Assembly (NCBI RefSeq): GCF_024505165.1
Contig: NZ_JANIBK010000012.1
Span: 1 to 54,834, forward strand
Direction of reading: 5' to 3'
Length of the DNA stretch: 54,834 bases
DNA from: Methylomonas rivi
GTDB taxonomy: Bacteria; Pseudomonadota; Gammaproteobacteria; Methylococcales; Methylomonadaceae
The notes beneath the pieces are model-generated. The model saw nothing but the letters and a program-made list of their open reading frames with translations, ran no database searches and was not told the origin of the DNA. Below, in pieces: positions 13,925 to 33,259 of this stretch. A program made the position numbers and the translations under genes. Within the stretch, counting starts at the first letter, position 1, and each line of letters starts with the position of its first letter.

Positions 13925-15946
13925 TTAAAAACGCTCAAAGTCGGAATCGTCAAAATCCAATGAGTTGTCGATGCTTGCGGCATGGCTTTTAGGCTTGCCC
14001 TGAGCGGTTTTGGCCGGCGAACGGGAGGGGCGAAAATTGCCGCCGGATCCTTGATTTTTAGTGCTATTGGCATCCAATTTAAAAAAGCCAACCGCATGTT
14101 GCAATTGCGTTGCCTGACCATTGAGTTCTTCAGCGGTAGCGGCCAATTCCTCCGCGCTGGCCGCGTTTTGCTGGGTGGCTTTATCCAGTTGCCGCATGGC
14201 TTCGTTGATTTGATTGATACCGCTGGATTGTTCGATTGAGGCGGCGTTTATCTCCTGTACCAGATCGGAGGTTTTGACGATATTGGGCACCACGGTGGAG
14301 ATCAATTGACCGGCTTTTTCCGCGATTGCGACACTGTTGGTCGCCAACTCGTTGATTTCTTCGGCGGTTATCCGGCTGCTTTCCGCCAGTTTACGCACTT
14401 CGGCCGCCACCACGGCAAAACCTTTGCCATGTTCGCCGGCGGAAGCCGCCTCAATGGCCGCATTCAATGATAACAAATTGGTTTTATAGGCAATGTCCTC
14501 AATTTGGCCTATTTTTTTGGCGATGTGTTTCATGGCTTTAACCGTTTCATTCACCGCTTCGCCGCCATCACGGGCTTCTCCGGCCGATTTGGTCGCCATT
14601 TGCTCGGTAACATGGGCGTTTTCGGTATTTTGTTGCACCGATGCATTTAGTTGCTCAATGGATGAAGTGGTTTCCTCCACGCTGGAAGCCTGTTCGGTCG
14701 CCATTTGACTCATGGCCTGGGCTGTGGCGCTGACTTGTTGCGAGGCGCTGCTTAAGGTGTCCGAATTTGAGCGGACTTGTTCGACTACCCGGCTCAGTTG
14801 GTCGCGCATATTGATTAATGCCAGCGCTAACTGACCGATTTCATCCTTGCCTTCCACTTCTAGTTTCGCCGTCAAGTCGCCCTCGGCCAGGGATTTGGCA
14901 AATTTAACCCCCAACGTAATCGGCGCGGTAATTAAATTGGCCAGGAACATGGCAATGATGATGCCTAAGATCAAAGCCGCTATGATGGTGCCGACGATGA
15001 TTTTGTTGGCTTCAGACACTAAGGTTTCGGCTTGATTTCTGGCAACGGTTAACTGTGCATAACCCGCTTCCTCTGCGGTTTGGGCTTGCTTGATGACGTT
15101 ATCGCCCAATTCAAGCATCTCCTTTCTGACAACATTCAGTTCGTTATCGTTATCAATCCAGTTTTGTGCCGCTTCTTGGTATTCGCGGGTTGCACTTCTG
15201 GCTTCAGCAATCAGCTTTTTGCCTTCGGCAGTTCCTGCAATTTTCTCCAGATCATCGTAGAGATTGATTAGCTCCGGCAGCCAAATCTGCATTTTTTTCC
15301 AGGCCACCCGGTTTTTGTAATTTACTTCCTCCTTTTCGGACCGCATGATCTCCATAGCCTTAATGTAAACTTGGCTAGCCAAGACATAACGTTGAACAAA
15401 TGTATCAAGTTCCTGGGCATTGGCGTTTTTCTCCATGGCTTCTTTATAACGACCTACTTGTCTCTTCAAATAAGCGTCAGCGGCACTTGCAACGATATTG
15501 CCTTTTTCTGTCATTACATCAACGGCTTTTTGATTGGCTTTGACTGACGCGACTACCAAACGAAATTTCTCACCAAATTTCAGCGTGCCTTCCCGGGCAA
15601 TTTTGGATTGATTAAGCAACTCTGTATTCGCGTATTGTTTGGCCACCTGATCCACTTTGTCGAGGTATTCCAGCAACGATTTCATATTGTCTTCAACCTT
15701 CTGTGCATCTTCGTCTTTGTAGGAGATGCGGTAAGCACGCTGATTCAATATGGTTTGTAAAGCCATCCTTTCCACGCCCGTTGCGTACTCGACCGATTTG
15801 CCGTTGTTGTCGGTAATGCCGAACAAGGCCCCGGAGACATTGCCGATATAGAGCTTGGCCAACAAACCAAAGCCTATGGTAATGGCTACCAGCAACATTG
15901 CACCTGCGAGAATTTTGGTTTTTATTTTGAGGTCGTTAATGTTCAT
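13925..15946 (-). CDS. methyl-accepting chemotaxis protein with large periplasmic helical sensor
   Basis: This is a 673-residue transmembrane receptor. TM1 is at about residues 11-33. A long all-helical periplasmic domain follows (about 35-315) whose length suggests a helical bimodular type sensor. TM2 is [26 protein letters not shown] segment ([31 protein letters not shown], quoted in part) precedes the signalling hairpin, whose tip reads [19 protein letters not shown] then [19 protein letters not shown]. There is no C-terminal CheR/CheB-tethering pentapeptide; the tail is acidic ([10 protein letters not shown]). It lies between cheA and cheW, so it is likely the main receptor of this array. 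The ligand is unknown. Confidence 0.92.
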
Positions 15947-15995
15947 GCGGATTGTCCTTTTTTAATATGAGTACGTTGCGTTTTGTAAACGAATA

Positions 15996-18182: not shown

Positions 18183-18511
18183 GTTTTTTTCCAATTAGCG
18201 GATAGCACAATCGGGTCGCCGAAATGATTACCCAAATTGAGCAATTCAAACACTTCTACCACGGGTTGACTGTGATGAATGAGGCTGAGTTTGATATGCC
18301 GTTCGTTGGCTTCCCGTTTTACGAAAAGTAACAATTGCAAGCCGGCGCTATCGATTTCCGAGACGCCCGATAGATCAATTTGAAGTTCTTTGTTGTTTTC
18401 CAGGCATTCGGAAAAGGTAGTCTTTTGATCCAGCGCGGTATAAATCGTCATCTCACCATTGATTGCAAGATGAGCGGCGGCATTTTTGAGCTGTTTGATT
18501 TCGATGGACAC
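18179..18511 (-). CDS. STAS-domain (anti-anti-sigma-like) protein
   Basis: This 110-residue single-domain STAS protein has the SpoIIAA-type core ELQIDLSGVSEIDSAGLQLL, whose serine in DSAG is the residue phosphorylated in partner-switching proteins. The start is GTG 18511 with GGGAGAAG upstream. It sits between cheY and cheA and overlaps cheA by 4 nt, so it belongs to the chemosensory unit. STAS proteins in such clusters are known to accompany CheA-CheY systems, but their job varies. No cognate GHKL anti-sigma kinase is next to it. Whether CheA or another kinase modifies it cannot be said. Confidence 0.88.
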   Translation of the reverse strand: MSIEIKQLKNAAAHLAINGEMTIYTALDQKTTFSECLENNKELQIDLSGVSEIDSAGLQLLLFVKREANERHIKLSLIHHSQPVVEVFELLNLGNHFGDPIVLSANWKKT

Positions 18512-18538
18512 GTTCTTCTCCCGCTAGGCGAAGGTGGC

Positions 18539-18907
18539 TCAGGGCAAGACTAATTTGGCTACCGCATCGAGCAATGTTGGCGCCTGAAAAGGCTTGGTCA
18601 GCCAGGCTTTGGCGCCCGCATCCTTGCCGGCTTGTTTTTTATCGCCGGCCGTTTCCGTGGTGAGCATCATCATCGGCGTGAATTTATAGGCGGCGAGTTT
18701 TTTGGCTTCTTGCACAAAGGTTATGCCATCCATGTTGGGCATATTGACATCGGTGATGATGAGATTGATCTTTTGTCCGGTGAGCTTGCTCAATGCGTCC
18801 TTACCGTCGCAGGCTTCGACGACATCGTAGCCCGCTCCCTTCAATGCAATGGTTACAACTTGTCGTATCGAGGCCGAGTCGTCGACTATCATGATGGTTT
18901 TCGCCAT
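18539..18907 (-). CDS. cheY: single-domain response regulator CheY
   Basis: This 122-residue receiver takes phosphate from CheA and controls the flagellar or other motor output. The acidic pair is in IMIVDDSAS, the phosphoacceptor is in LIITDVNMPNMDG, the conserved Thr is in MLTTET, and the Lys is in AKAWLTKPF. AAGAGA lies upstream of ATG 18907. It is placed between a short MCP gene (24 bp upstream) and the STAS gene (27 bp downstream) in the minus-strand run. No CheZ phosphatase gene is seen in the window. Confidence 0.93.
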   Translation of the reverse strand: MAKTIMIVDDSASIRQVVTIALKGAGYDVVEACDGKDALSKLTGQKINLIITDVNMPNMDGITFVQEAKKLAAYKFTPMMMLTTETAGDKKQAGKDAGAKAWLTKPFQAPTLLDAVAKLVLP

Positions 18908-18931
18908 GGGTATCTCTTTACCGTTTAAAAT

Positions 18932-20137
18932 TTAAAAAAAGGTTAGATCGTTATCTTGACCCAGTCCGGCGCGACTGGCCGCGCTCGATGAAATGTGATT
19001 CAGATGCTCTTCCGGCATGGTGTAATTTAACTCCATGCCCGCCAGGGTTTTGTCGACATCCAGCATGTTGGCGTGTCGTTGTTCGCCCGCTTGCCGGCTT
19101 TTCTCAACGGTTGTCTGTAAACCGAGCAGATTGTTTTCCACATGCGACAGCATTTGACTCACCCGGTCTTGAAACTGAAATGCCGTTAATACCGTATAAA
19201 TTTCGTCGCGAATCTCCGAGCTATTGCCTCTCAGCATATCGGCATCGTTTTTGAACACATTTAAGGCGGACTGCAAATCGCCTAAGGCTGTCTGTATGCT
19301 CGCTTCGGCATCGTGAATGGTTTTGTCTTCGCTGCTGCCGGACAATTCCGACATTTTTAAGGTACTGGCCATGGCGGCGTTAATGTCGGCAATGGCCGAA
19401 CTGATTTTTTCGCCGGTGGAAGAGGAAAAACCGGCCAATTTTCTCACCTCATCGGCAACCACGGCGAAACCGCGCCCGTTCTCTCCGGCCCTGGCTGCTT
19501 CAATCGCCGCATTTAAGGCCAGCAAGTTGATTTGTTCCGCCACTTTTCGTACTTCCTTGGCCATGGTGTCCAATTGATAAGTATGCGTGGACAGTTTGCG
19601 CACTTCCTCGGTCACGGCATGCTCGACGTTTTGAATTTCACGCAGACCTTTCAAAACGGCTGTCAAAGCGGTTCGGCTTTCGGTAAAAATATTGTCGATA
19701 TTGCGGCCGTCCCCGCCATGTCCGGTGCCGGAAATGATATTGCCCAAACGCTCAACCATAACGGCAAATCGATTGGTCAAGACGGTAATTTCCTGCTCCG
19801 TGTGGCTGCGGGACGTTTGAACCTGACGCAATAAAATCGGCACAACGTGAATGAACAATCGCTCCAGTTCAGCGACATAAGCATGTACATCCCGCAGTTT
19901 GGCGTCTTCATCGCGCTGCCAGTCTTGATTATTGGTTTGCAAGGTATTTTGTTGTTTATGCCATAAAATGCTGCCCAAGCCGAAGCCGGCAATACCTAAA
20001 AATATGCTTATCATGGCGGTAACGACGGTGAACCCCGTCATTGACATCGGCACCAAGCCGCAAAGTAAGCCGAAGCAGGTCGGTAACAGGTGGAAACTGG
20101 TTTTTGACCGTATAGTCAGACTCTCTGCGCGAGACAT
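18932..20137 (-). CDS. short membrane-anchored methyl-accepting chemotaxis protein
   Basis: This 401-residue protein has two closely spaced N-terminal membrane helices (about residues 15-35 and 38-60) and no periplasmic sensor domain. A cytoplasmic helical region follows, with the MCP signalling tip [20 protein letters not shown] then [14 protein letters not shown]. The end contains [20 protein letters not shown], a motif often seen in such short MCPs. It may sense a cytoplasmic or membrane state, or relay signals from another protein. It is the first gene of the minus-strand chemosensory run, with GGAA upstream of ATG 20137; cheR starts 164 bp away on the other strand. Confidence 0.88.
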
Positions 20138-20301
20138 GAAAATTCCATTAGGATTTTGAGATTATGGCTGGATAGTAGATGGTTTTCGGCGCGCGTTCAA
20201 TACATTGATAGAGTAGGTCTAAAAAATGTTAGCGTATCGCAAGTATTCAATATAATCGATTGACTGGAATGCCGGTTTTTCTTTGTTTTTAGAGAGGTTT
20301 T

Positions 20302-21108
20302 TTGAGTATTTCCACTATTACGCCTGAAGAATTCGATGACTTCCGGCGCTTGATTTACAATCATGCGGGTATTTCGCTAAGCCCCGAAAAAAAGGTCATG
20401 GTGGCGAGCCGGCTGGCTAAAAGGCTGGACTACCATGGTTTGTCCAGTTATGGGGAATACTTCAATTTATTGACGCATCGCGATTATCCGCAAGAGTTTC
20501 AAATGATGGTGAATATTCTCACCACGAATGAAACTTACTTTTTTCGAGAACCCAAACATTTCGAATTTTTTCGGAATGTCATTCTGCCCGCCTGGCGCGG
20601 GGATATGTTCAGAGTCTGGAGTGCCGCCAGTTCAACCGGAGAGGAAGCCTATAGCTTGGCCATGGTGCTTGCCGAAAATATGGGTATGCGCAATTGGGAG
20701 ATTTTTGCTTCCGACCTCAGTACCCGGGTTTTAGAGGTGGCGCGTATTGGCGTTTACCCATTGGATAGGCTGGATCAGATGGATCCTTTTTTATTGGAAA
20801 AATACTGTCTGAAAGGCGTTCGGACGCAAGCGGGTTTCTTTAGAGTGGATAAAAAAATCCGTAACAAGGTCAGGTTTGCGCAGGTTAATCTCAAATCGCC
20901 CTTGCCGCCCGGTCTGGGACAATTCGAAGTGATATTTTTACGCAATGTCCTGATCTATTTCGATCAAGACTTCAAAAAACAAGTCGTGGAGCGTTTGGCC
21001 GCCGCTTTAAAGCCAGGCGGTTATTTTATTGTCGGCCACTCTGAAAGCCTGCATCGGGCGACGGATGGGCTGCGGATGGTCATACCTTCGATTTATCGCA
21101 AGGAATGA
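20302..21108 (+). CDS. cheR: chemotaxis protein methyltransferase CheR
   Basis: CheR methylates glutamates of chemoreceptors with S-adenosylmethionine for adaptation. The start is a TTG at 20302, preceded by AGAGAGG at ideal distance; no ATG gives the full N-terminal domain. The 268-residue protein has the alpha-helical CheR_N domain (FDDFRRLIYNHAGISLSPEK) and the methyltransferase domain with the AdoMet loop FRVWSAASSTGEEAYSLAM, then FEVIFLRNVLIYF and GYFIVGHSESLH. It overlaps cheD by 4 nt, giving a CheR-CheD-CheB adaptation operon. Confidence 0.95.
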   Translation: MSISTITPEEFDDFRRLIYNHAGISLSPEKKVMVASRLAKRLDYHGLSSYGEYFNLLTHRDYPQEFQMMVNILTTNETYFFREPKHFEFFRNVILPAWRGDMFRVWSAASSTGEEAYSLAMVLAENMGMRNWEIFASDLSTRVLEVARIGVYPLDRLDQMDPFLLEKYCLKGVRTQAGFFRVDKKIRNKVRFAQVNLKSPLPPGLGQFEVIFLRNVLIYFDQDFKKQVVERLAAALKPGGYFIVGHSESLHRATDGLRMVIPSIYRKE

Positions 21109-21698
21109 AGGCCTTGCCGGTTAAAAACCTGCAGCGGGTCATTATCGATCCGGGCGAATATTATGTTAGCGCCAAGCCCGAGGTGATTTCCACCCTGTTG
21201 GGCTCGTGCGTGGCGGCTTGCCTGTTCGACCCTGTTAACCGGGTTTTCGGCATGAACCATTTCTTGTTGGCATACCGGCAGTATTCGCAACATATACCCA
21301 TCATACAATCCGAAGAGGGGCGGTACGGCATTTACGCGATGGAATTGCTTATCAACGGCATGATGAAGCGCGGCGCCAGCCGGTCAAATTTGAACGCCAA
21401 ATGTTTTGGCGGTGCCAATGTATTGAGAGTGCGGGAAGGCAGTCAACATGAACGAACCGTGGGAGATGTCAACGTGGAGTTCATTAAAGCGTTTTTAGCC
21501 AATGAGAAAATTCCGCTAATCAGCTCCAGTTTAGGCGGTATGCATGGCAGAAACGTGCACTTTGTCGGCACCGATTATTCCGTATACATCAAAAAGATCG
21601 GCGAATCGCAAGATCGTTTATTGGAAAAACAAGAGCGCCGTTATTGGCAACATATCGCGGAACACGAACAAAGCAAAAATACCGCCGAATTCTGGTAA
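21105..21698 (+). CDS. cheD: chemoreceptor glutamine deamidase CheD
   Basis: CheD converts receptor glutamines to glutamates and can interact with CheC/CheY-type partners in other bacteria. The catalytic Cys-His pair is visible: STLLGSCVAACLFD contains the cysteine and FGMNHFLLA the histidine. The downstream core GIYAMELLINGMMKRGASRS and KCFGGANVL is typical. At 197 residues it fits the family. ATG 21105 overlaps the cheR stop. cheB begins 33 bp after its stop. Confidence 0.93.
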   Translation: MKALPVKNLQRVIIDPGEYYVSAKPEVISTLLGSCVAACLFDPVNRVFGMNHFLLAYRQYSQHIPIIQSEEGRYGIYAMELLINGMMKRGASRSNLNAKCFGGANVLRVREGSQHERTVGDVNVEFIKAFLANEKIPLISSSLGGMHGRNVHFVGTDYSVYIKKIGESQDRLLEKQERRYWQHIAEHEQSKNTAEFW

Positions 21699-21731
21699 TC
21701 CCCCTTTGCTACTCAACCTAGGACACACACC

Positions 21732-22826
21732 ATGCCGGATATAAAAGTATTTATCGTTGACGATTCCGCCGTGGTCAGGCAAGTGCTGACCGCATTATTG
21801 GATGGATTGCCCGGCATACAGGTTATCGGCTCGGCACCGGATCCGATTTTTGCCTTGAAACGCATGGAAACCGCTTGGCCGGATGTGATTGTGCTGGATA
21901 TTGAAATGCCGCGCATGGACGGCATTACCTTTTTAAAAAAATTGATGCGGGAACGGCCGACGCCGGTGGTTATTTGCTCCACGCTGACAGCGAAAGGCGC
22001 GGAAGTGACCATGCAGGCCATGAGTGCCGGTGCCGTCGACATCATTACCAAGCCCACCCTCAATTTGAAGGGTTTTTTACAAGACTCGAAAACCCTGTTG
22101 GCGGATGCCATCAAAGCCGCCTCGCATGCCAGGGTTAAGAAAGTATCCAGTGTTTCCAGTCAACAAATGGAAAGTACACCTAAACTGACTGCCGATGCGG
22201 TGATTATGCCCACCGGTTTGGCACCCATGTCGGAAACCACCGACCGCGTGATTGCCATAGGCACCTCAACCGGAGGCACTCAGGCGCTGGAGTATGTATT
22301 AACCCGTCTGCCGAGAATCGTGCCGGGAATCGTCATCGTGCAACACATGCCCGAGGCCTTTACGGCGGCATTTGCCAAGCGGCTGGATAGTTTGTCGCAA
22401 ATCAGCGTCAAGGAAGCCGAACAAAATGATCGCGTCATACCCGGGTTGGCGCTGATTGCCCCCGGCGGCAAACATATGTTGCTGCGGCGCAGTGGTGCGC
22501 AGTATCGGGTGGAAATCAAGGATGGCCCCTTGGTGAGCCGGCATCGGCCTTCCGTGGATGTGTTATTTCGTTCCACCGCGCAAGCCGCCGGTAAAAATGC
22601 CATCGGTATTATCATGACGGGAATGGGCGATGACGGTGCGCGCGGCTTGAAAGAATTACACGATACCGGTGCCTTGACCGTGGCGCAGGATGAAGCCAGT
22701 TGCGTGGTATACGGCATGCCCAAGGAAGCCGTGAAAATAGGCGCCACCGATGCGGAGTTTTCGCTGGCCGCCATTCCGGAATTGATTATTCGTTCACCCA
22801 GCAGGGCCAAACTGCTGAAAGCTTAG
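21732..22826 (+). CDS. cheB: chemotaxis methylesterase/response regulator CheB
   Basis: CheB removes methyl groups from receptors once phosphorylated by CheA. The 364-residue protein has an N-terminal receiver ([13 protein letters not shown], phosphoacceptor in [12 protein letters not shown], Lys in ITKPTL) and a C-terminal methylesterase. The catalytic triad is readable: Ser in [13 protein letters not shown], His in [10 protein letters not shown], and Asp in [11 protein letters not shown]. It ends the plus-strand cheRDB operon. Its stop overlaps by 4 nt with the stop of the receiver-kinase gene on the other strand. Confidence 0.95.
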
Positions 22827-24097
22827 TCCGCTTGCTGAATGGGCAGGCGGATTGTAAAGGTAGAACCCCGGTTGGGCTCGCTGCATACCTCAATTTTGCC
22901 GTGATGAGCGCGCACGATACTTTGCGCGGTTGATAAGCCCAAGCCTATGCCTTTGCCCGGCGGGCGGGTGGTAAAAAAAGGTTCGAATATGTGTGGCAAA
23001 TGTTCCTGCGCAATGCCGTGCCCCGTGTCTGCAATTTCCACCCAAATCTGTTGCCGGTCATGGCCTGTGCGTATAACGATGTCGCCGGCGGTGTCGATGG
23101 CTTGCGAGGCATTGACCAATAAACTTAAAAAAACCTGATTCAGTCGAGCCGGCAGGCAGCGAGCGGCGGGAATATCGGCAAAATCCCTGTGAATTGTACA
23201 ATGCGCGTTTTGGCCATTTGCAAAGATGCTCAGCGTGATGTCCAGGCATTTGTTGATATCGGTCAGTTGCCATTCGTTATCGTTGCCTTCGGCAAATTGT
23301 TGCAGATTTTGAATGATGTCGCGTACCCTCGCCAAGCCGTCACGGGATTCGGTCAGCAGCTCGTTCATGTCGTTACGCAAAAAATCGAGTTCCTTTTCCG
23401 CCTTTAAGTGCTGTATTTTTTGCATCAGTTCCGCAGCGTCCGGTGTTTCGCCCACACAGCGCTCATAAGCATCCAGCAAGTCGAAAATATCCCGGTTATA
23501 GGTCTGCAATGTATTGAAATTGGAATAGATAAAACCCAAGGGATTGTTGATTTCATGCGCCACCCCGGCCGCCAGTTGGCCGACTGCCGCGAGTTTCTCG
23601 GCTTCCAGCAATTCCAGCTGAATCAGTTGATTTTCCCTTAGCCTTTTTTCCAGTTCGGTTTCCAGGTAAGTATTTTGATCTTGCAGCCTGTCGCGGGCCT
23701 TCTTGAGTTCGATTTGGGTGCCGACCCGGGCCGACAAAATCGCTAAATTGCACGGTTTATAAATGTAATCCACCGCCCCCAGTGCAAATCCGCGCGACTC
23801 GTCCAAGTCCGAGGTCAAGGCCGTGACAAAAATGACCGGGATATCGCGCGTTTCTGGGCTTTCTTTCAGTTTGCCCATCACTTCATAGCCATCCATCTCG
23901 GGCATCATGATATCCAATAAAATCAAGTCCGGTTTAGGAGTGGCGCAGGCAATTTCCAGGGCTCTGCCGCCGGAGGTTGCCGCCAACACCGAATAGCGGG
24001 GCGCCAAACATTGTCCAAACACGGTCAGATTGATACTGTCGTCGTCTACCAACAGGATAGTGCCGAGCGGCTCCGGTTTCGCGTTATCAACTGCCAT
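22823..24097 (-). CDS. receiver-histidine kinase (REC-HisKA-HATPase), cytoplasmic
   Basis: This 424-residue soluble kinase has the receiver first. REC spans about residues 12-125 with D62 as phosphoacceptor ([13 protein letters not shown]). A coiled-coil linker follows, then the H box with H181 ([19 protein letters not shown]), an N box (LLVNASQAI), and G boxes ([20 protein letters not shown] and [15 protein letters not shown]). The NPLGFI motif places it in the HisKA group that also acts as phosphatase. It has no membrane segment, so its input is probably the receiver itself. It is convergent with cheB and divergent from the corrinoid operon, and so may link the two clusters. GGAAC lies upstream of ATG 24097. 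Confidence 0.9.
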
Positions 24098-24334: not shown

Positions 24335-25975
24335 ATGCCGAACGATTCATTGCCGATGCCAGTTGAAACGCTGCATAGTTTGTCGGTACGCAGCGATACG
24401 GCCGAGATACGGATTTCCGTTTCCGAGGCAACCTCCGTGCGTGACGCGCTCGATCTCACCGAATTAAGAGTCCGCGCCGCTTGTGGCGGTTTAGGCAGTT
24501 GCGGCGCCTGTCTTATCAAGGTTTTAGCCGGCGAGTTTAACCCGGCAACGCTGGCGGAACGACAAAAACTGTTGCCGGGAGATTTGGCAAGCGGTTTGCG
24601 TTTGGCATGCCAATTGAAAGCGCGCGGTTCCGGTGCGTTGTATCTTGAACGCCCCGCACCGGCCTCGCAGTGGAAAAGTTTTCAACAAATGCCGCGACCG
24701 CGCCCAGTTGTCGAAATTGCCGCCAATCTGCAATATCCGTATGGGCTTGCCGTCGATTTGGGTACCACGCATATCCGCTTATCGTTATGGCACCGGCAAA
24801 CGGGGCGGCATATCGGCAGTCGCATAGGCATCAACCCCCAAGTTGCGTTTGGCGCCGATGTATTGACGCGGTTGGATGCAAACCGCCTGAGTGTGCAAGA
24901 CCGGCAACGCCTTTGCCGTACGGCACGGCTAGCCGTTATTGACGGCGTTCGCGATATTTTAAGCCGCGATCTGGGAGAAATTACCCCCATTCTTGCCGAG
25001 ATTGGCCAAGTGCGGGTAGTGGGCAATAGCGTGATGCTGGCGCTGATTTGCGGCGGCGACGGTAATGCCTTATATGAACTGGAGAATTGGCGGCAAAAGC
25101 TGGTTTTCCAGCCCGATGATCCGAGTGCCTGGCGCCGGGAATGGCGCATGCCGCATGCGGATATCGGCATAGAGCAACCCCTGGCCGGTTTTGTCGGCTC
25201 CGATTTATTGGCCGATCTGTTGATAACCGGCATGACCGCGCAAGCGGAGCCTTGTTTGTTGGCGGATTTAGGCACCAATACCGAAATTGCCGTGTGGGAT
25301 GGGCAAAGCGTTTGGGTTTCCTCGGTACCCGGCGGCCCGGCCTTTGAAGGCGTGGGGATGCGCAACGGGCTGGCGGCGGAGGCCGGTGCAATCTATAAAG
25401 TCGGTAAAGCGCGGCAGCACTGGCAACTGGAAACCATAAGCAACAGCCCCGTGCGCGGTTTTTGCGCCAGCGGATTTATCGATGCCATCGCCTTGCTGCT
25501 GCGGGAAAAGCACTTAAAACCCTCCGGCCGATTTGCCGAACCGCGGCCCGAAAATGGATTTTGTTTTGTAAGTAATTGCGTACATTCGGCTATTTTTGCG
25601 AGCGACATCGATATTTTTCAACGCGCCAAGGCAGCCACTGCGGCCGCCATGGCACAATTGCTGACGATGGCGGGTTTATCCGTTGCCGATCTGCAAACCT
25701 TATGGATATGCGGCAGTCTGGGCCAACATCTCGATTTGGACCATGCCATGGGGGTCGGCTTGTTGCCGGAAATGGCCGTGGACAGGATCAAACGATTCAG
25801 TCACGCCAGCTTGGCGGGTTGCCAGGAACTGCTATTAAACCCGGATGCCATGGCTCAATTCGACCAAATTCGCCGGCTGGCCACGGTCATCAATCTCGGC
25901 GGAATTAGCGAATACGAAGTGCTTTTTATCGAAAACCTTCGCTTACAACCCCTTGCCATGCGGGCGACGTCATGA
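24335..25975 (+). CDS. RACo-type reductive activator of corrinoid proteins ([2Fe-2S], DUF4445/ASKHA)
   Basis: Such proteins use ATP to reduce inactive Co(II) corrinoid to Co(I) so that methyl transfer can restart. The 546-residue product has an N-terminal ferredoxin domain with a plant-type [2Fe-2S] cysteine set (C50, C56, C59 in RAACGGLGSCGACLIKV and C92 in RLACQ). A middle and C-terminal ASKHA-like ATPase follows, with YGLAVDLGTTHIRLSLW, CLLADLGTNTEIAVWDG, GGPAFEGVGMRNGL and a final phosphate-binding region WICGSLGQHLDLDHAMGVG. AGGA precedes ATG 24335. It overlaps the corrinoid protein gene by 4 nt (ATGA), which fits a direct activator-substrate pair. It heads the six-gene operon that runs to 31968. 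Confidence 0.9.
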   Translation: MPNDSLPMPVETLHSLSVRSDTAEIRISVSEATSVRDALDLTELRVRAACGGLGSCGACLIKVLAGEFNPATLAERQKLLPGDLASGLRLACQLKARGSGALYLERPAPASQWKSFQQMPRPRPVVEIAANLQYPYGLAVDLGTTHIRLSLWHRQTGRHIGSRIGINPQVAFGADVLTRLDANRLSVQDRQRLCRTARLAVIDGVRDILSRDLGEITPILAEIGQVRVVGNSVMLALICGGDGNALYELENWRQKLVFQPDDPSAWRREWRMPHADIGIEQPLAGFVGSDLLADLLITGMTAQAEPCLLADLGTNTEIAVWDGQSVWVSSVPGGPAFEGVGMRNGLAAEAGAIYKVGKARQHWQLETISNSPVRGFCASGFIDAIALLLREKHLKPSGRFAEPRPENGFCFVSNCVHSAIFASDIDIFQRAKAATAAAMAQLLTMAGLSVADLQTLWICGSLGQHLDLDHAMGVGLLPEMAVDRIKRFSHASLAGCQELLLNPDAMAQFDQIRRLATVINLGGISEYEVLFIENLRLQPLAMRATS

Positions 25976-26640
25976 CTCTGACAAACTATATCCAGGCCTA
26001 CAACGAAGCGGTTTTCGAGACGGACAAGCCGGCGGCGTTGGCCGTGGTCAATCAAGCCTTGCGCGATGGTTTGAGTCCGGAAGATGTGGTATTCAAATTG
26101 GTGATTCCGGCGGTTGAATCCATGATGGAGCGGATCGAAAAAGACCAGGACTCCAATTTGGCCCAACATTTTATGACGGCGCAAATTGCCGCCGATGTCA
26201 CCGAAAAAATGCTGGAAAAATTCAGCTCGCCGCCTGAAATTATCGGTAAGGTAGTTATCGGTGCGGCCTCGGGCGACCTGCATTCCTTGGGGAAGCGTAT
26301 CGTCAGCGGTTGTTTGAAGTCGTTGATGGTGAAGGTGATCGATTTGGGCATCAACGTCGGCGCCGAACAATTCGTGGAGGCCGCCGTTGCCAACGATGCC
26401 CAGGTGATTGCCATTTCCGCCATGATGGTGCACACCGCAACCGGCGAAAACGGCAGTATCAAAGTCAGGGCCTTGTTAAAACAGCGCGGCCTGGAAGACA
26501 GGATAAAACTCGCCGTCGGCGGTGCCCCTTATCGTTTCGACCCCGCTTTATTCCGAAAAGTCGGTGCCGATGCCTGGGCCCCGGATGGCGTGACTGCCGC
26601 TAAAGTCATTGTACGACTGATTAACGAGGCCAAGACATGA
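25972..26640 (+). CDS. corrinoid (B12-binding) methyl-carrier protein, MtaC/MtbC type
   Basis: This 222-residue protein should carry a methyl group on cobalt. An N-terminal four-helix B12-binding cap (about residues 1-85) precedes a Rossmann-type domain. That domain carries the base-off/His-on signature D-x-H-x-x-G in GAASGDLHSLGKRIV; its histidine is the lower cobalt ligand. Downstream GAEQFVEAAVANDAQVIAIS and KLAVGGAPYRFDPALFRKVGADAWAPDG are typical of the MtaC/MtbC/MttC family. It lies between the activator and a UroD-family methyltransferase, overlapping each by 4 nt. The methyl donor is not shown by sequence; no MtaB, MtbB or MttB substrate methyltransferase is in the window. Confidence 0.9.
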   Translation: MTLTNYIQAYNEAVFETDKPAALAVVNQALRDGLSPEDVVFKLVIPAVESMMERIEKDQDSNLAQHFMTAQIAADVTEKMLEKFSSPPEIIGKVVIGAASGDLHSLGKRIVSGCLKSLMVKVIDLGINVGAEQFVEAAVANDAQVIAISAMMVHTATGENGSIKVRALLKQRGLEDRIKLAVGGAPYRFDPALFRKVGADAWAPDGVTAAKVIVRLINEAKT

Positions 26641-27665
26641 CACCCCTGCAAATTCTGGATGCCGCCGTAACCGGCTCCGCCGCCCCCCGGATTCCGATTT
26701 TCTGCAATTTGTTCGATCAAGGCGCGCGGGAAATGAATCTGCATCCTAAAGCGTATTTTGCCGATGGCGCCTGCGTGGCGGAGGCGCAATTACGTATGCA
26801 AAAGCGCTACGGATACGACAATGTCTGGAGTTTGCAATATGTCGGCAAGGAAGCGGAATTGCTGGGTTGTAAAAAGATTTTGTTTGCCGACGACGGGGTT
26901 CCCAATGTCGCCGATTTTGTCATCGGAAACTGGGACGACATCGGTACCTTCGAGGTGCCTAGCGACATCACGCAACATCCCGCCTGGCAATCCGTTGCCG
27001 ATTGCTTGGCCATCTTGCGCGACGAAGTGGGCGCCACTCGTCCGATTTGCGCTTATGTCACAGCCTCCACGACCTTGCCCGCCATTCTGATGGGGATGGA
27101 TAAATGGATGGAATTGTTTTTGTTGGGCCCCACCGATTTACGCGATGAACTGTTGCGTAAATGCGCGGATTTCGTGCAACAACACCTCGCCGCCTTGCGT
27201 GCCGCCGGCGCCAATGTGCTGGTCTATTCCACGCCCTTCGGTTCGCCGTATTTCGTCAGTAAAAAAATTATCGCCAATACCGTCATGCCCTGGATGCAAA
27301 AGGATTTAAGCCGTGGCGGGGTTGCGGATGTGGTGTATTACTGCGGCATGGCGCCTTTCAATGAGGTGATCGATCCGGTTTTCGCGCAATTGGGCATCCG
27401 CTCGCATTACATCAGTCCGCTGGCCGATCTGGCCGAAGCCAAGCGCATAATCAATAGCCGCGGCCTGACCTGCGGCGTCATCGACGACATCAAGATGATT
27501 CATTGGAGCGCTGAAGAAACCCGCGCCGAAGTGCGCCGAATCATCGACATCGGCAAACCCGGCGGTCATTTTTTATTCGGTAACGGGGTCATGCCCATGG
27601 CTGTGCCGGAAGCCAATATTCGCGCCATGCTGGATGCCGCCTTTGAATTCGGGCAACTGTCATGA
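26637..27665 (+). CDS. uroporphyrinogen decarboxylase (URO-D) family methyltransferase, MtaA/MtbA-like
   Basis: This 342-residue TIM-barrel protein belongs to the URO-D superfamily group that transfers methyl groups to or from corrinoid proteins (MtaA, MtbA, CmuA N-terminal part). Supporting marks are the corrinoid-module context and segments such as YGYDNVWSLQYVGKEAELLG and FLLGPTDLRDELLRKCADF. The zinc site differs from MtaA/MtbA: where they have H-x-C, this protein reads Y234-Y-C236 (DVVYYCGMAPF), and where they have the distal Cys in a GCG-type loop it has N316 (FLFGNGVMP). Zinc binding may thus be altered or use other residues. True heme-pathway HemE is unlikely given the context. The acceptor (tetrahydrofolate, a thiol, or a donor substrate) is unknown. 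It overlaps both neighbours by 4 nt. Confidence 0.82.
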   Translation: MTPLQILDAAVTGSAAPRIPIFCNLFDQGAREMNLHPKAYFADGACVAEAQLRMQKRYGYDNVWSLQYVGKEAELLGCKKILFADDGVPNVADFVIGNWDDIGTFEVPSDITQHPAWQSVADCLAILRDEVGATRPICAYVTASTTLPAILMGMDKWMELFLLGPTDLRDELLRKCADFVQQHLAALRAAGANVLVYSTPFGSPYFVSKKIIANTVMPWMQKDLSRGGVADVVYYCGMAPFNEVIDPVFAQLGIRSHYISPLADLAEAKRIINSRGLTCGVIDDIKMIHWSAEETRAEVRRIIDIGKPGGHFLFGNGVMPMAVPEANIRAMLDAAFEFGQLS

Positions 27666-28282
27666 AAACAATCACCTTACAGCCGGAAAACCCGCCGCCA
27701 TTAACCATGATCGGTTGCGGCATCCTGCGCAAGGAAGTCGAGCGCTTGATCGAGAAAAATCACTGGAATTTACATACCCATTTTCTGGACTCGGCTCTGC
27801 ACAACTATTTCAACCGCTTGTCGGCCGAACTCAATCAAGCCTTGGAGGAGCGGGAAAAGCTCGGCGAAAAAACCGTGGTACTTTACGGCAGTTGCCATCC
27901 TTTGATGGAACATTACCTGGAACAGCACCACACCTGCCGCACCCGTGGCCAGAATTGCGTGGTCATGCTGCTGGGCTACGAACGTTTTATGCGGGAACTG
28001 GAAAAAGGCGCTTATTTTCTGCTGGAAGATTGGGCGCTTACCTGGCAGCCCATGATCACCGCCTGCTTCGGCAATAACGTCGGCGTGGTGCGGGAAATAT
28101 TTCACAGCGGCCACAAATACATGCTGGCGCTCAGAACTCCCTGCAACGGCGACTTTACCGAGGCGGCCGAAAGCGCGGCCCGCTTCGTCGACTTGCCCTT
28201 GCAATGGCTGGATGTCGACCTGGATCATCTGGAGCATGTGGTCGGCGAAGCCATTGCTCAACGTCTCGCCCTGCATGACTGA
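27662..28282 (+). CDS. DUF1638 family protein
   Basis: This 206-residue soluble protein matches the DUF1638 family, which I know mainly from corrinoid methyltransferase clusters of methanogens and anaerobic bacteria. Visible features are MIGCGILRKEVERLI near the N-terminus, LYGSCHPLMEHYL (Cys and His), NCVVMLLGYERFM, and WQPMITACFGNNVGVVREIF. The conserved cysteines and histidine suggest a metal or thiol role, but no reaction is established. It overlaps the URO-D gene by 4 nt and the histidine kinase gene by 8 nt, so it is translated with the module and links its enzymatic and signalling halves. Confidence 0.8.
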   Translation: MKTITLQPENPPPLTMIGCGILRKEVERLIEKNHWNLHTHFLDSALHNYFNRLSAELNQALEEREKLGEKTVVLYGSCHPLMEHYLEQHHTCRTRGQNCVVMLLGYERFMRELEKGAYFLLEDWALTWQPMITACFGNNVGVVREIFHSGHKYMLALRTPCNGDFTEAAESAARFVDLPLQWLDVDLDHLEHVVGEAIAQRLALHD

Positions 28283-29858
28283 CTCAGCCGCCGTACAAGC
28301 CTTGCAAAACCGGGTTAACCATCTGGAAAACCGGGTACGCAAGCTGTCGGAAGAAAAGGCCAATCTTTATCTGGTGTTGCATATGGTTGAGCTGTTGAAT
28401 CCGGTAGCCGGGGTGGACAGTTTTTTGGAAAGCTTGATGTCGGCCCTGTGCGGCAGTTTGGGCGGTACCAATGTGGAAATTTATTATCTGGATGAAGACG
28501 AAATTCATTATGCCAACCTGCTGAGCGGCCAGCGGCGGCTAGTGGAAACCATCGACGACAGCTTGATTGCCAATGTGTTTCAGCATCATGGTTTGGTTGA
28601 AGAGTCCACCGATCTGGAGCATACCTTATTAAAGGAAAACATCGCCGCGGTGGCCTGCACCTGGGTGATGCCGCTCATGGTGGCCGGCAAATTCCTGGGG
28701 GCGGTGAAAATGTCAGACCTGTTGGGAACCGCGCAAATGCGTAACTATCTGACGCCTTTTTTCTCGCATATTGCGCTGATCCTGGATAACAAAATCCAAA
28801 CCCGCAAAGCGGAAAGCGCCAATAAAGCCAAATCCAATTTTCTAGCCACCATGTCGCATGAAATCCGCACGCCGCTCAATGGCATTCTGGGCATGGCGCA
28901 GTTGTTATCCGCCCCCGTCTGCAGTGACGACCAACGCCGCGATTATGCCAAAACCATTCTAACCTCCGGCAATACCTTGCTGACCTTGTTAAGCGATATT
29001 TTGGATTTAGCCAAAATCGAGGCCGACCGGCTGGAGTTGAATGTATCCCCGGTGAGTCCGCAACAGCTTTTGCATGATGTATTGGCCTTGTTTTACGGCA
29101 GCGCCCAGCACAAGGATTTGCGTGTCGATGCGGTTTGGCGGGGGCCGGCGGCGAAAATGTATCAGCTGGATAAGTTACGCATAAAACAAATGCTGTCCAA
29201 TTTAATGAGCAACGCGATCAAATTCACCGAGTGCGGTTCCATTCATCTCGAGGCGGGCGAAGTGGAAAGCGGCGAGAATACCTGCGTGTTGGAATTTTCC
29301 GTTACCGATACCGGCTTGGGCATTGCCAAGGACAAACAACATCTACTGTTTAAGGCTTTCAATCAGGTCGATAGCGGCTCCAATCGGCGCCATGAAGGTA
29401 CCGGCCTGGGCTTGTCTCTGGTATTGCGTTTTGCGGAATTAATGCGGGGGCAGGCGGGAGTGGAAAGTCAAGCAGGGCAGGGTGCGCGCTTTTGGTTTCG
29501 TATCGTTTGCGCCGTTGCGGAGCAACCACTGAGCCCGCCGCTAAGCGATGCGGCGTCCCTGTCCGGCTCGGCCGAGGCCACCATGGAAAGCGGGTCCGCA
29601 AGCGGTTTGGATGCGGAAATGCTGGTTTCGCGCCTGCCCGAGGATGTTGAAGACGATATCGAAGAATTAAGTCTATTACTGAAAAAAAACATGTTTAACG
29701 CTATTAATCAATTCAAAATCGTGCAAACAAAGCTGCAGGGTAGTGCCGTCGCCGGCCGGTTCGAGTCCTTGGGCGCGCTGATAAACGCCATGCGTTTTGA
29801 GGAAGCCCACAGTCAACTCATGCAATTGCGCAAACTCATGGGGGCTTGTGATGGTTGA
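28275..29858 (+). CDS. GAF-domain histidine kinase, cytoplasmic
   Basis: ATG 28275 overlaps the DUF1638 stop by 8 nt; a longer reading from 28212 would overlap that gene by 71 nt. The 527-residue kinase has an N-terminal coiled coil (residues 8-35) and a GAF-like domain (about 45-170: VDSFLESLMSALCGSLGGTN, VACTWVMPLMVAGKFLGAVK). The H box has H195 (KSNFLATMSHEIRTPLNGIL), followed by an N box (LSNLMSNAIKFTE), G boxes (TDTGLGIAKDKQHLLFKAF and EGTGLGLSLV), and a C-terminal helical tail without receiver. There is no membrane segment, so it reads an internal signal. Its next-door partner is a receiver-GGDEF-EAL protein, the likely phosphate acceptor. The coupling to the corrinoid genes suggests that the sensed state concerns that chemistry (inference). 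Confidence 0.9.
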   Translation: MTDSAAVQALQNRVNHLENRVRKLSEEKANLYLVLHMVELLNPVAGVDSFLESLMSALCGSLGGTNVEIYYLDEDEIHYANLLSGQRRLVETIDDSLIANVFQHHGLVEESTDLEHTLLKENIAAVACTWVMPLMVAGKFLGAVKMSDLLGTAQMRNYLTPFFSHIALILDNKIQTRKAESANKAKSNFLATMSHEIRTPLNGILGMAQLLSAPVCSDDQRRDYAKTILTSGNTLLTLLSDILDLAKIEADRLELNVSPVSPQQLLHDVLALFYGSAQHKDLRVDAVWRGPAAKMYQLDKLRIKQMLSNLMSNAIKFTECGSIHLEAGEVESGENTCVLEFSVTDTGLGIAKDKQHLLFKAFNQVDSGSNRRHEGTGLGLSLVLRFAELMRGQAGVESQAGQGARFWFRIVCAVAEQPLSPPLSDAASLSGSAEATMESGSASGLDAEMLVSRLPEDVEDDIEELSLLLKKNMFNAINQFKIVQTKLQGSAVAGRFESLGALINAMRFEEAHSQLMQLRKLMGACDG

Positions 29859-31968
29859 TCCCATCGCGACAGAACGCCCCAAAATTCTGATAATCGACGA
29901 TACCCCGGTCAATATCGCTTTATTGGGTCAGGCATTGCAGGAAGACTATGTCATTCAGATAGCCACCTCCGGCGCCAAGGGGCTGGAATTGGCGAATGAG
30001 GAAACGCCGCCCGATCTGATACTGCTGGATGTGATGATGCCGGATATGGATGGCTATGAAACCTGCCGGCTGTTCAAACAAAATCCTGTTCTGCGCGATA
30101 TACCGATCATCTTTGTCACCGCGCTGAACGAAATGGATGCCGAGGTGCAAGGCTTGTCGCTGGGCGCCGCGGATTTTTTGATCAAGCCGGTCAACATCGA
30201 AACGGCCCGCCTACGCATTCGTTACCAACTGGAGCGCGAGCAGATGCGAAAGGAACTGCAAAGCCGGGAAGCATCGCTACGTCTGGCGGCGAGCGTTTTT
30301 GCCTTTAGTCACGACGGCATTGTGATCACCGATGCCGAAAATCGCATTATCAACGTCAATGGAGCTTTCACCCGTATTACGGGGTACCAACTCGACGACA
30401 TTCGCGGTCAAACCCCGCGGGTTCTAAAATCGGGCCGGCAGCCGATGGACTTTTACAAAAACATGTGGCACAGCCTGCTCACCGAGAATCATTGGAGCGG
30501 TGAAATCTGGAATCGGAATAAGCGTGGCGAAATATATGCCGCCCTGACATCCATTTCCACCGTCAAGGACGAAAGCGGCGCCATTCATCATTTCATTGGT
30601 ATTTTTGCCGACATCACCTTGCTTAAAAACCAGCAATACAACTTGGAGCGCATCGCGCATTTCGACGCGCTGACCGGGGTGCCGAACCGGGTTTTGTTGA
30701 CCGACCGCATCGATCAGGCCATTGTGCACGCCCAACGCGCGAAAAATTTGATGGCGGTTTGCTATCTGGATCTGGATGGTTTTAAACCGATCAATGACAG
30801 CTACGGCCATGAAACCGGCGATCAATTATTGATAGAGGTCACCCAGCGTATCAAAGGCTGTCTGAGGGCGGGGGACACTCTGGCGCGTATTGGAGGAGAC
30901 GAATTTGTGCTGGTTTTGTTGGATATCAACGATGGCAGGGAATGCCGGGCGGTTTTGGATAGGCTTTTAGCCAAGTTGGCGGAGGCTACCGTGCTTTCCG
31001 GTCATCATGTTTCGGTGTCCGCCAGCATAGGTTTTACCCTGTATCCGGATGATTTTACCGACGCGGAAACCCTGATCCGGCACGCCGATCAGGCCATGTA
31101 TGTCGCCAAGCAGCGCGGAAAAAATCGTTACCAATTGTTCGATCCGCATTTGGACAGGTTGGCGCTGGAGCAAGGGAAAACCTTTGCCCGTATCGAAGAG
31201 GCGCTGCAACAGCATGAATTTGTGCTGTATTTTCAACCCAAGATCAATATGCGGCAGGGTAGGGTGTTTGGTGTCGAAGCCTTGATCCGTTGGCAAGACC
31301 CCGGCCGTGGCTTGTTGCCGCCGTCAGCGTTTTTGCCGGCGATTTCGGATACCGAGCTGGAGGTGGCCATCGGTAAATGGGTGCTAAACCGAGCGTTACA
31401 TTATCTGCAAGAATGGCAGCAAATGGGGATCATGCTGACGGTCAGTATCAATATCGCGCCCCGTCATTTGCTGCAGGCAAATTTTGTGACTGAATTGACC
31501 GCGCAATTGGCGCAATACCCTGAGTTGCGCCCCCATTGTCTGGAGCTGGAAATACTGGAAACGGCGGCTTTGGAGGATATTGAGCGGGTATCGAATGTGA
31601 TGCAAGCCTGTCAAAAACTGGGCGTTAATTTTGCCTTGGACGATTTCGGCACCGGCTACGCCTCGTTGACCTATTTGAAAGTTTTGCCGGTCCATATCTT
31701 AAAGATCGATAAATCGTTTGTCATCGACATGCTGAGCGATGCGGAAGATTTGGCGATAGTGACGGGCATCATCAGTCTAACCCAGACATTTGGGCGCCAA
31801 GTTATCGCCGAAGGTGTCGAATCCATTGAGCACGGCCTGAAATTGCTGGCTCTGGGATGTGAAAATGCGCAAGGTTTCGCCATTACCCGCCCCATGCCGG
31901 CGGAGGCATTACCCAACTGGCTGTCCAGTTGGCAACCGATTGCGGATTGGCGGCAAGGGACGGCATAG
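29851..31968 (+). CDS. response regulator REC-PAS-GGDEF-EAL (cyclic-di-GMP turnover)
   Basis: ATG 29851 overlaps the kinase stop by 8 nt. Domains of the 705-residue protein: a receiver with D60 (LILLDVMMPDMDG); a PAS domain (about 145-260: ASVFAFSHDGIVITDAENRI); a GGDEF domain with intact active site at 348-352 and the inhibitory I-site RxxD at 339-342; and an EAL domain with the catalytic set readable (EALIRW at 476, NIAPRHL, LEILE, DDFGTGYAS, ILKIDKSF, IAEGVES). Both cyclase and phosphodiesterase could therefore be active, with phosphorylation and the PAS domain shifting the balance. It ends the six-gene operon. Output through c-di-GMP would affect motility or attachment, in keeping with the nearby chemotaxis genes. 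Confidence 0.93.
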   Translation: MVDPIATERPKILIIDDTPVNIALLGQALQEDYVIQIATSGAKGLELANEETPPDLILLDVMMPDMDGYETCRLFKQNPVLRDIPIIFVTALNEMDAEVQGLSLGAADFLIKPVNIETARLRIRYQLEREQMRKELQSREASLRLAASVFAFSHDGIVITDAENRIINVNGAFTRITGYQLDDIRGQTPRVLKSGRQPMDFYKNMWHSLLTENHWSGEIWNRNKRGEIYAALTSISTVKDESGAIHHFIGIFADITLLKNQQYNLERIAHFDALTGVPNRVLLTDRIDQAIVHAQRAKNLMAVCYLDLDGFKPINDSYGHETGDQLLIEVTQRIKGCLRAGDTLARIGGDEFVLVLLDINDGRECRAVLDRLLAKLAEATVLSGHHVSVSASIGFTLYPDDFTDAETLIRHADQAMYVAKQRGKNRYQLFDPHLDRLALEQGKTFARIEEALQQHEFVLYFQPKINMRQGRVFGVEALIRWQDPGRGLLPPSAFLPAISDTELEVAIGKWVLNRALHYLQEWQQMGIMLTVSINIAPRHLLQANFVTELTAQLAQYPELRPHCLELEILETAALEDIERVSNVMQACQKLGVNFALDDFGTGYASLTYLKVLPVHILKIDKSFVIDMLSDAEDLAIVTGIISLTQTFGRQVIAEGVESIEHGLKLLALGCENAQGFAITRPMPAEALPNWLSSWQPIADWRQGTA

Positions 31969-32030: not shown

Positions 32031-33209
32031 TTAAGGTCGATTTTGCGGGTCGGCTTCAGGCGTATCTGTTTGTCGCTTTTCTTGTTTAAAGGGCAGATAA
32101 GCGGCGGCCGCTTGCCGATATTGATGTACGCCGATTTGTTCGCGTTTGACGAAGTCGGCGACGGCTTCGGCAAAGCCTGGGTGTTTAATCCAATGCGCCG
32201 AATAGGTGGTAATCGGTTCAAAGCCGCGAGAAATCTTGTGTTCGCCCTGGGCGCCGGAATCGAAACGTTGCAGGCCGTTTTCAATGCAGTAATCCAGGCC
32301 CTGGTAGTAGCAGGCTTCGAAATGCAGGGCATTATATTCTTCGTAACAGCCCCAATAGCGGCCGTATAAACAGTCCGTACCGACAAAGCTTAGGGCCGCT
32401 CCCACGTAAGTTCGATCTTTCACCGCCAAAATCAATAGGCATTGCTCGGGCATGCTGGCGGCAAGCTGTTCAAAAAAAGCCGGGGTCAAATAAGGCTGGC
32501 TGTGCCTTTTCAAGTAGGTTAGCGAGTAAAACTGGTAGAACGCCTGCCATTGCGGCTCGGTAATCGCCGTACCGGGGATGCGCAGCATCTCTATGCCTTG
32601 TTCCGTAACCCGGCGGCGCTCCCGCTTGATCATTTTGCGCTTGCCGGCGCTCAGGGTTTGCAGATAATCGGCAAAATCACCATAGCCGCGGTTGAACCAC
32701 TGAAACTGCACGCCGCTGCGCACACTGAGTCCCAGGGCTTCGAGATGCGCTAATTGCGCCGGTTCCGGAAACAGGCAATGCCAGGATGAAATGGCTTTTT
32801 CCGTGGCGGCTTGTCGAATAAAATCCAACAGCAAGCGCATTACCTCGGCCGTATCGGCGCCCGGCTTCGCCAGCAGGCGCGGACCCTGGCAGGGCGTAAA
32901 AGGAACGGCGCTCAGCCATTTGGGATAGTAATCCAGGCCGTGCCGCCGATAGGCGTCCGCCCAAGCTTGATCGAACACATATTCGCCCCAGGAATGCCGT
33001 TTTTCATACAAGGGCAGAATGGCCTGCAACTCGCCTTGCTCTTCGATCAGTAAATGCCGCGCCTGCCAGCCGGTTTTTGCGCAGACAGAGCCGCTTTGTT
33101 CCAACGCCGACAAAAACTCGTGGCGCAAAAACGGATAATCGGCGCCGGCCAGACGATTCCAGTCGCCGGCATCTATCTGGGTCAGACTATGGATTTGTTT
33201 TACTTCCAC
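32031..33209 (-). CDS. FemAB-like GNAT acyltransferase (PF04339-type)
   Basis: This protein of about 392 residues belongs to the family annotated as peptidogalycan biosynthesis/recognition or GNAT acyltransferase. Readable family segments are WLSAVPFTPCQGPRLL, FNRGYGDFADYLQTLSAGKRK then IKRERRRV, and a C-terminal FEACYYQGLDYCIENGLQRFDSGAQGEHK (quoted in parts). The start is uncertain: GTG 33209 (reading VEVKQIHSLTQID) is preferred, and TTG 33230 is the alternative; neither has a strong ribosome-binding site. The substrate is unknown. It is divergent from the DUF938 gene with about 50 bp between. A decayed copy of its C-terminal part lies at 12760-12872, and the tail of another gene follows its stop. 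Both suggest it was moved here. Confidence 0.75.
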   Translation of the reverse strand: MEVKQIHSLTQIDAGDWNRLAGADYPFLRHEFLSALEQSGSVCAKTGWQARHLLIEEQGELQAILPLYEKRHSWGEYVFDQAWADAYRRHGLDYYPKWLSAVPFTPCQGPRLLAKPGADTAEVMRLLLDFIRQAATEKAISSWHCLFPEPAQLAHLEALGLSVRSGVQFQWFNRGYGDFADYLQTLSAGKRKMIKRERRRVTEQGIEMLRIPGTAITEPQWQAFYQFYSLTYLKRHSQPYLTPAFFEQLAASMPEQCLLILAVKDRTYVGAALSFVGTDCLYGRYWGCYEEYNALHFEACYYQGLDYCIENGLQRFDSGAQGEHKISRGFEPITTYSAHWIKHPGFAEAVADFVKREQIGVHQYRQAAAAYLPFKQEKRQTDTPEADPQNRP

Positions 33210-33259
33210 GCTTAAAAACAGTACAGTCAAATCGGCAAGATAACATTAATTTAGAGCCC

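Follow-up and report, generated by a model that had tools for sequence, protein, structure and literature searches.

What are genes of the kind that serve anaerobic methyl transfer doing in one operon with a histidine kinase and a regulator of cyclic di-GMP (c-di-GMP)? This question is raised by a 54,834-nucleotide stretch of Methylomonas rivi (contig NZ_JANIBK010000012.1; hereafter the window, meaning that whole stretch), in which six plus-strand open reading frames (ORFs) occupy positions 24335-31968. In order, they encode a RACo-type ATP-dependent reductive activator of corrinoid proteins (24335..25975), a corrinoid (B12-binding) protein resembling MtbC and MtgC (25972..26640), a URO-D-family methyltransferase-like protein that we call type I (26637..27665), a DUF1638 protein (27662..28282), a histidine kinase (28275..29858), and a response regulator with the domains REC, PAS, GGDEF, and EAL (29851..31968). 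The first-pass annotation had described this chain as overlapping by 4, 4, 4, 8, and 8 nucleotides (nt), and a recheck of the ORFs and junction letters bears it out: the junctions read ATGA, ATGA, ATGA, ATGACTGA, and ATGGTTGA, where ATG codons at 28275 and 29851 are taken as the starts for the two 8-nt overlaps. The operon is flanked by one gene in divergent (22823-24097) and one in convergent orientation (32031-33230). As set out below, the coupling of B12-dependent methyl-transfer genes to signaling is strongly supported, and from it we infer both a sensing role and a ligand: the six genes probably form a dedicated signal-input module, a sensor of corrinoid state, rather than a catabolic operon.

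The coupling reaches well beyond Methylomonas, a genus of methanotrophs. An alignment scan of species genomes with the URO-D protein gave 126 relatives, and the far-relative counts that follow refer to the best 80 of these 126 (53 to 87% identity), with taxa taken from the record names and the parts of each locus annotated with home-made profiles. The closest named protein among the best 80 is that of Methylomonas sp. SURF-2 (87% identical), and the names span Gamma- (Methylomonas), Beta- (Rhodocyclaceae), Alpha-, and Zetaproteobacteria, Magnetococcales, Geobacteraceae, and other "deltas" as well as, beyond the proteobacteria, Acidobacteria, Verrucomicrobia, Nitrospirae, Chloroflexi, Bacteroidetes, Ignavibacteriales, and Hydrogenedentes. 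The corrinoid protein adjoins URO-D in 79 of the 80 loci (L138 has a broken URO-D frame), and a GAF-domain protein lies downstream in 77. The first-pass objection that the kinase might not adjoin the corrinoid genes in relatives does not hold, and the coupling is much broader than could be seen from the window. The full set is present, for example, in Methylotuvimicrobium buryatense 5G (L065), a species with a tractable laboratory strain, 5GB1. Closer to home, 26 of 101 related genomes, counting that of the window, have DUF1638. In 25 of the 26, URO-D, DUF1638, and the GAF protein follow one another in this order, preceded by the corrinoid protein in 24 (in G041, the contig starts within URO-D); the 26th genome, G096, has the corrinoid protein, URO-D, and the GAF kinase with no DUF1638 between. 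Kinase identity falls to 31-36% in L051 and L054. Elsewhere in the genus, 20 of 36 genomes have the coiled-coil-GAF domain of the kinase, and because of this patchy presence the module is accessory.

Could such a neighborhood be a matter of chance, or simply inherited without function? Synteny is indeed to be expected within one genus, yet the module order is kept under at least seven phylum-level names while its flanks change, and DUF1638 is fused to signaling proteins in several loci. A control set points the same way. It comprised 57 DUF1638 loci of at most 3.5 kb (L143-L199, 57 loci of the 86 matches listed, excluding the window and G046; in L149 and L187, DUF1638 was found by Pfam and missed by the home-made profile), of which 7 carry URO-D type I, 5 carry its type II paralogue, and 45 carry neither. 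A histidine kinase, GGDEF, or EAL domain is present in 5 of the 7 type I loci, 4 of the 5 type II loci, and 0 of the 45 others, none of which has a histidine kinase, REC, GGDEF, or EAL domain within ∼1.5 kb; the coiled-coil-GAF domain is present in 6/7, 0/5, and 0/45, respectively. The misses are L169, with a GAF domain and no histidine kinase; L196, a 2.1-kb stretch cut at the contig edge; and L184, to which we return below. Since the order recurs across phyla and control loci without URO-D lack signaling genes, the linkage is more than chance, and an accidental neighborhood is scarcely credible.

The link between the two halves of the operon appears to lie in the N terminus of the kinase. 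The kinase matches HisKA (4.5e-23) and HATPase_c (1.5e-23), and its H, N, and G boxes are intact (SHEIRTPLN, LSNLMSNA, DTGLGI, and GTGLGL); here and below, the motifs of kinases, receivers, GGDEF and EAL domains, RACo, and corrinoid proteins are read in what we take to be their usual meaning. A Pfam search of the window kinase at E 1e-3 gave no GAF and no PocR match. The GAF label of the first-pass annotation is nevertheless right, because the AlphaFold2 model of residues 1-199 (mean predicted local distance difference test [pLDDT] score, 90.9) matches GAF structures in Foldseek (best E, 3.6e-6; the top 50 of the 216 matches with E ≤ 1e-3 were viewed); among relatives, Pfam GAF scores over its cut-off in L054 and below it in L139. 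With a profile of this coiled coil plus GAF domain (NDOM; 28275..28844), we detected the domain in 26 of 101 relatives and in 11 of 398 Pseudomonadota; both sets include the genome of the window. The 26 relatives are the same as those with DUF1638, and of the 57 DUF1638-bearing genomes among the 398 Pseudomonadota only 11 have the domain. In 36 of 36 distinct genomes, type I URO-D immediately precedes it, and the corrinoid protein is visible in 32; in G041, G117, G144, and G165, the locus or contig starts inside URO-D, leaving the corrinoid protein out of view. Given these 36 occurrences, the coiled-coil-GAF domain is private to the module in this sample. Some loci hold more than one GAF-domain gene: two GAF-domain kinases follow one corrinoid protein-URO-D pair in L126 (a Bacteroidetes record), and L105, L109, L116, and L117 have two GAF-domain genes each.

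A second tie between B12 module and output is provided by DUF1638. The window protein scores 104.4 bits against PF07796 (gathering cut-off, 27; 7.6e-30), and its AlphaFold2 model (pLDDT, 92.4) has an alpha/beta fold. Across three subfamilies, C19, C78, and C99 are the same in all 126 aligned DUF1638 domains, and E25 is kept in 125; the three invariant cysteines suggest a possible metal-binding or redox role for DUF1638. In type II loci, directly behind the corrinoid protein and URO-D type II, DUF1638 is fused to output domains, as DUF1638-PAS-histidine kinase-REC (L058, L059, and L060), DUF1638-histidine kinase (L057, followed by a REC-PAS-PAS-GGDEF-EAL protein), or DUF1638-PAS-GGDEF (L061), and home-made profiles find DUF1638 and a histidine kinase in a single frame also in L195, L197, L198, and L217. 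In type II locus L194, EAL is encoded by a separate gene; contig ends truncate L196 and L216. A type I locus, L139, encodes DUF1638, GAF, and histidine kinase in one protein. On the basis of these fusions, we argue that DUF1638 and the B12 module probably feed the output protein. Two further DUF1638 genes were noted. A stand-alone type II DUF1638 lies at 8786-9412 of L062 (G096:C2), with no corrinoid protein or URO-D near it in the 18 kb fetched. In L056 (7794-11717; G016:C2), a methanol methyltransferase of the MtaB type adjoins a RACo that ends in 4Fe-4S domains, and a family search placed DUF1638 there as well; the ownership of this locus is uncertain because G016 is a bin that is 77% complete and 5% contaminated.

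Several observations weigh against the reading as a sensor module. DUF1638 is present in 71 of the 80 loci and missing from nine, and RACo is upstream on the same strand in 52, leaving 28 without it (two of these have RACo on the other strand, and L082, L126, and L132 offer little upstream sequence); RACo and DUF1638 are therefore not obligatory, and the constant type I core is the corrinoid protein, URO-D, and the GAF-domain output. Even this core has gaps. Three loci are without a GAF protein: in L093 and L099, the contig stops after a further 416 and 147 nt, respectively, and L137 is a real exception. L137 and the control locus L184 (3.4 kb, ending shortly afterward) are type I loci with no GAF-domain gene in view despite room for one. 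Two of the 77 positive cases are weak, the GAF gene of L117 lying 5.1 kb downstream and that of L108 being a partial match in a short frame. The type II proteins, too, look like coiled coil plus GAF between DUF1638 and PAS, with a profile match to type I that is not significant. The distances of URO-D and GAF domain covary with an r of 0.79, a statistic that ignores the species tree (64 of 81 loci, all four parts being required and near-identical URO-D proteins removed). Finally, an operon with its own regulator can equally be an enzyme system under its own control circuit.

What, then, is the URO-D protein (Pfam URO-D, 5e-34)? The window's own genome contains a single match to it at E 1e-3. 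From 113 type I matches, removal of duplicates and of two broken L138 pieces (score <350) left 93 distinct proteins, which we compared with MtaA (4ay7) at the zinc site, whose ligands we take to be H-x-C plus a third cysteine. The histidine is replaced by tyrosine (Y234) and the third cysteine by T, N, or S in 93 of 93, and the middle cysteine is retained in 89, the triad being intact in 0/93. Having lost this triad, type I URO-D is not an MtaA-like thiol methylase. Assignment to MtaA/CmuA (TIGR01463) was rejected as well, with 64 bits against a cut-off of 235.4 and without an intact zinc triad. Zinc is not required throughout the family: in one report, CdmB is described as moving the methyl group of chloromethane to its own corrinoid protein without zinc, its regulator being unknown, and CmuA, CdmB, and MtvB as URO-D-family proteins that act as the substrate methyltransferase (PMC13222342). 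Since such enzymes exist, type I URO-D, which matches CdmB (9rui) weakly by profile (E 9e-4), may by analogy be the substrate methyltransferase itself.

On this ground one could take the module for catabolic or detoxifying methyl transfer, with URO-D as a CmuA- or CdmB-like enzyme and a two-component regulator of its own. The mec cassette, with its PocR-domain histidine kinase and response regulator (PMC9768040), would be a precedent, and URO-D is conserved as strongly as one would expect of an enzyme (mean pairwise identity of 64% over 64 loci). The searches for partner enzymes speak against it. In blastp with one MetH fragment, two FolP seeds, and one MtaB seed (MttB had no seed), no acceptor methyltransferase (pterin type) and no MtaB was found in the 80 loci except for a folP-like gene in L117, the MetH matches being those of its B12 part to corrinoid proteins. 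The Pfam families listed for neighboring genes were 25 of 91 and 25 of 101, and a rare methyltransferase neighbor is possible. Also against it stand the output side, made up of phosphorelays and c-di-GMP enzymes, the fusions that join DUF1638 with kinases and with a diguanylate cyclase, and a GAF domain confined to the module in our sample. We regard catabolism as improbable. The first-pass annotation had argued from the lack of a substrate methyltransferase in the window. That observation now extends to the whole genome, which has no MttB-type and no MtaB-type gene, but the argument is unsafe, because URO-D-family proteins such as CmuA, CdmB, and MtvB can be substrate methyltransferases themselves.

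A sensor of corrinoid state, the reading we prefer, need not sense a methyl donor. Its activator, RACo, matches RACo_C_ter (3.9e-50), Raco_middle (1.3e-21), and Fer2 (1.8e-8), all over cut-off, and the four cysteines of its N-terminal [2Fe-2S] ferredoxin domain are intact in the window protein and conserved in 53 of 53 aligned sequences; assignment to the RamA subfamily (TIGR04270, 86.2 against 500 bits) or to AcsV (NF040756, 183 against 800 bits) was rejected. The corrinoid protein (B12-binding, 6.4e-20; B12-binding_2, 8.5e-6) has the lower-ligand motif DxHxxG, seen as GDxHxLGK in 80 of 80 aligned sequences (80 of 81 loci were used), and was rejected as a methyltransferase cognate corrinoid protein (TIGR02370, 97.5 against 215.3 bits). 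In L097 and L102, one open frame covers the corrinoid protein and type I URO-D, an apparent fusion, and L097 has a type II module downstream as well. With these parts, the kinase could read switching between Co(I), Co(II), and Co(III) as oxygen or redox changes, RACo re-reducing the cobalt and URO-D acting as a scaffold without any methyl substrate. The missing zinc triad (intact in 0/93) agrees with this, as do several hosts that, going by their record titles (Magnetococcales, Mariprofundus, Methylococcales, and Gallionellaceae), are microaerophilic or inhabit oxic-anoxic interfaces. The module also contains RACo-like and DUF1638 proteins, the inferred reactivation proteins in Phaeobacter (PMC5764234). 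Geobacteraceae, Chloroflexi, and other loci, however, have no RACo nearby, and a scaffold needs no such conservation as URO-D shows at its former zinc site (Y234 in 93/93) and elsewhere. We hold a pure oxygen or redox sensor to be a tentative possibility, rather unlikely in itself; it is a variant of the preferred explanation, not its opposite.

What the module reports to differs from locus to locus. In the window, the kinase and its REC partner have the features of a two-component pair (H, N, and G boxes and a phosphorylatable receiver): the receiver carries DDTP and LLDVMMP, and the GGDEF-EAL motifs are intact (RxxD-GGDEF RAGDTLARIGGDEF, VEALIRW, DDFGTG, KIDKSF, and EGVE). Of the 77 downstream GAF proteins, 62 are kinases and 4 are GGDEF(-EAL) proteins; neither was found in the other 11, seven of which are cut by a contig end, with early frame ends in L082 and L108, a PAS/GAF end in L118, and an HD-GYP end in L129. 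A GGDEF or EAL domain follows within 9 kb on the same strand in 21 of the 80 loci. The input of the module is thus constant while its outputs vary (histidine kinase, GGDEF-EAL, HD-GYP, or PAS/GAF only), and the phosphorelay with c-di-GMP output proposed in the first-pass annotation stands with one correction: c-di-GMP is one of several outputs (62/77 kinases, 4/77 GGDEF proteins, and one HD-GYP).

These data lead us to the following model. URO-D would move a methyl group from a small donor onto the Co(I) corrinoid of the B12 protein; alternatively, the cobalt would be oxidized as redox potential or oxygen rises. RACo, with DUF1638, would reset Co(II) to Co(I), as their families suggest, and the state of the corrinoid would then track the supply of donor or oxidant. 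The private coiled-coil-GAF domain, coupled to these genes in genome after genome, would read the complex of corrinoid protein and URO-D by contact, whereas in the type II paralogue DUF1638 itself would act as part of the kinase or cyclase. The kinase would finally phosphorylate the REC domain of the REC-PAS-GGDEF-EAL protein, whose domains are observed, and thereby change c-di-GMP. More generally, we lean toward the view that corrinoid methyltransferase complexes serve as receptors in a widespread and so far undescribed class of bacterial sensors. Through the chemistry of B12, they would detect a small or volatile methyl donor, or else the redox state of cobalt, and a private GAF domain or a DUF1638 fused to the output would pass the signal to kinases, diguanylate cyclases, EAL, and HD-GYP proteins.

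The surroundings of the module add a candidate partner and further signaling genes. The divergent gene at 22823..24097 (minus strand) encodes a REC-HisKA-HATPase hybrid protein, a homologue of which is divergent from RACo in 15 of the 20 loci fetched from the same genus and also in L055, from Methylotuvimicrobium, and another of which (58% identity) lies upstream of the type II module in L060; it is likely an extra relay partner, with tentative membership in the module. Signaling genes are frequent close to the module: among genes within 1 kb of it (71 upstream and 62 downstream, of which 66 and 58 were run through Pfam, five upstream and four downstream methanotroph rows being taken as redundant), REC (23), HATPase (16), and HD_5 (5) occur upstream, and REC (20), GGDEF (15), and HATPase (10) occur downstream. 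A chemotaxis cluster at 13925-22826, with two MCP-signal proteins, REC, CheA-like, CheR, CheD, and CheB, is present next door, as first noted, but CheR, CheD, and CheB lie near the module in some same-genus relatives only. Farther away, the window encodes the R subunit of a type I restriction enzyme (48232-51483, minus strand).

The linkage to signaling proteins in many unrelated bacteria suggests an undescribed chemical or redox sensor. In the open-license PubMed Central (PMC) literature (subscription papers being outside this scope), no description of a linkage between a B12 module and signaling was found, and the available excerpts of papers naming DUF1638 gave no kinase link; the earlier claim of an undescribed hard-wiring to a phosphorelay stands, with a linkage across many phyla. 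If this reading is true, enzymes so far assigned to anaerobic methyl metabolism would be receptors in aerobic methanotrophs, magnetotactic bacteria, iron oxidizers, and Geobacter relatives; DUF1638 would gain a context, and many orphan "uroporphyrinogen decarboxylase" and "corrinoid protein" annotations would be explained; and it would become testable how bacteria of the methane cycle perceive methylated compounds or redox and change between motility and attachment.

Compared with known systems, the module shares with MtaABC, MtbA, CmuA, and CdmBCA, together with RACo or RamA, a DxHxxG corrinoid protein, a URO-D-family partner, and a RACo activator. It differs in that its URO-D never has the MtaA zinc triad, no acceptor methyltransferase was found in the searches above, and it has a private GAF signaling protein; the NCBIfam scores of its proteins lie far under the cut-offs for MtaA/CmuA, MtbC, RamA, and AcsV. 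The mec cassette of dichloromethane-fermenting bacteria likewise combines URO-D proteins and a corrinoid protein with a histidine kinase and response regulator, but its kinase is of the PocR type, its response regulator is called transcriptional, and it includes an acceptor methyltransferase, MecF (PMC9768040). The split methionine synthase of Phaeobacter joins DUF1638, a RamA-like protein, and MtbC, with an inferred role in reactivation (PMC5764234); the DUF1638 and RACo-type families there are the same, and DUF1638 proteins encoded beside a corrinoid protein share the three invariant cysteines, but the Phaeobacter genes serve methionine synthesis, and the loci of this kind that we fetched have no URO-D and no kinase. 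DUF1638 without URO-D fits a reactivation partner like that of Phaeobacter methionine synthesis. CarH proteins are B12-based photoreceptors, light-responsive DNA-binding repressors with adenosylcobalamin. They too use a corrinoid as a signaling cofactor; the module instead has a methyltransferase-type corrinoid protein, an activator, and no DNA-binding domain. Two-component systems with GGDEF-EAL regulators have the same output half, whereas the input here would be a multiprotein corrinoid methyl-transfer complex. The output half of the module, kinase and c-di-GMP, is thus of a known kind, and its input half is, to our knowledge, of a new one.

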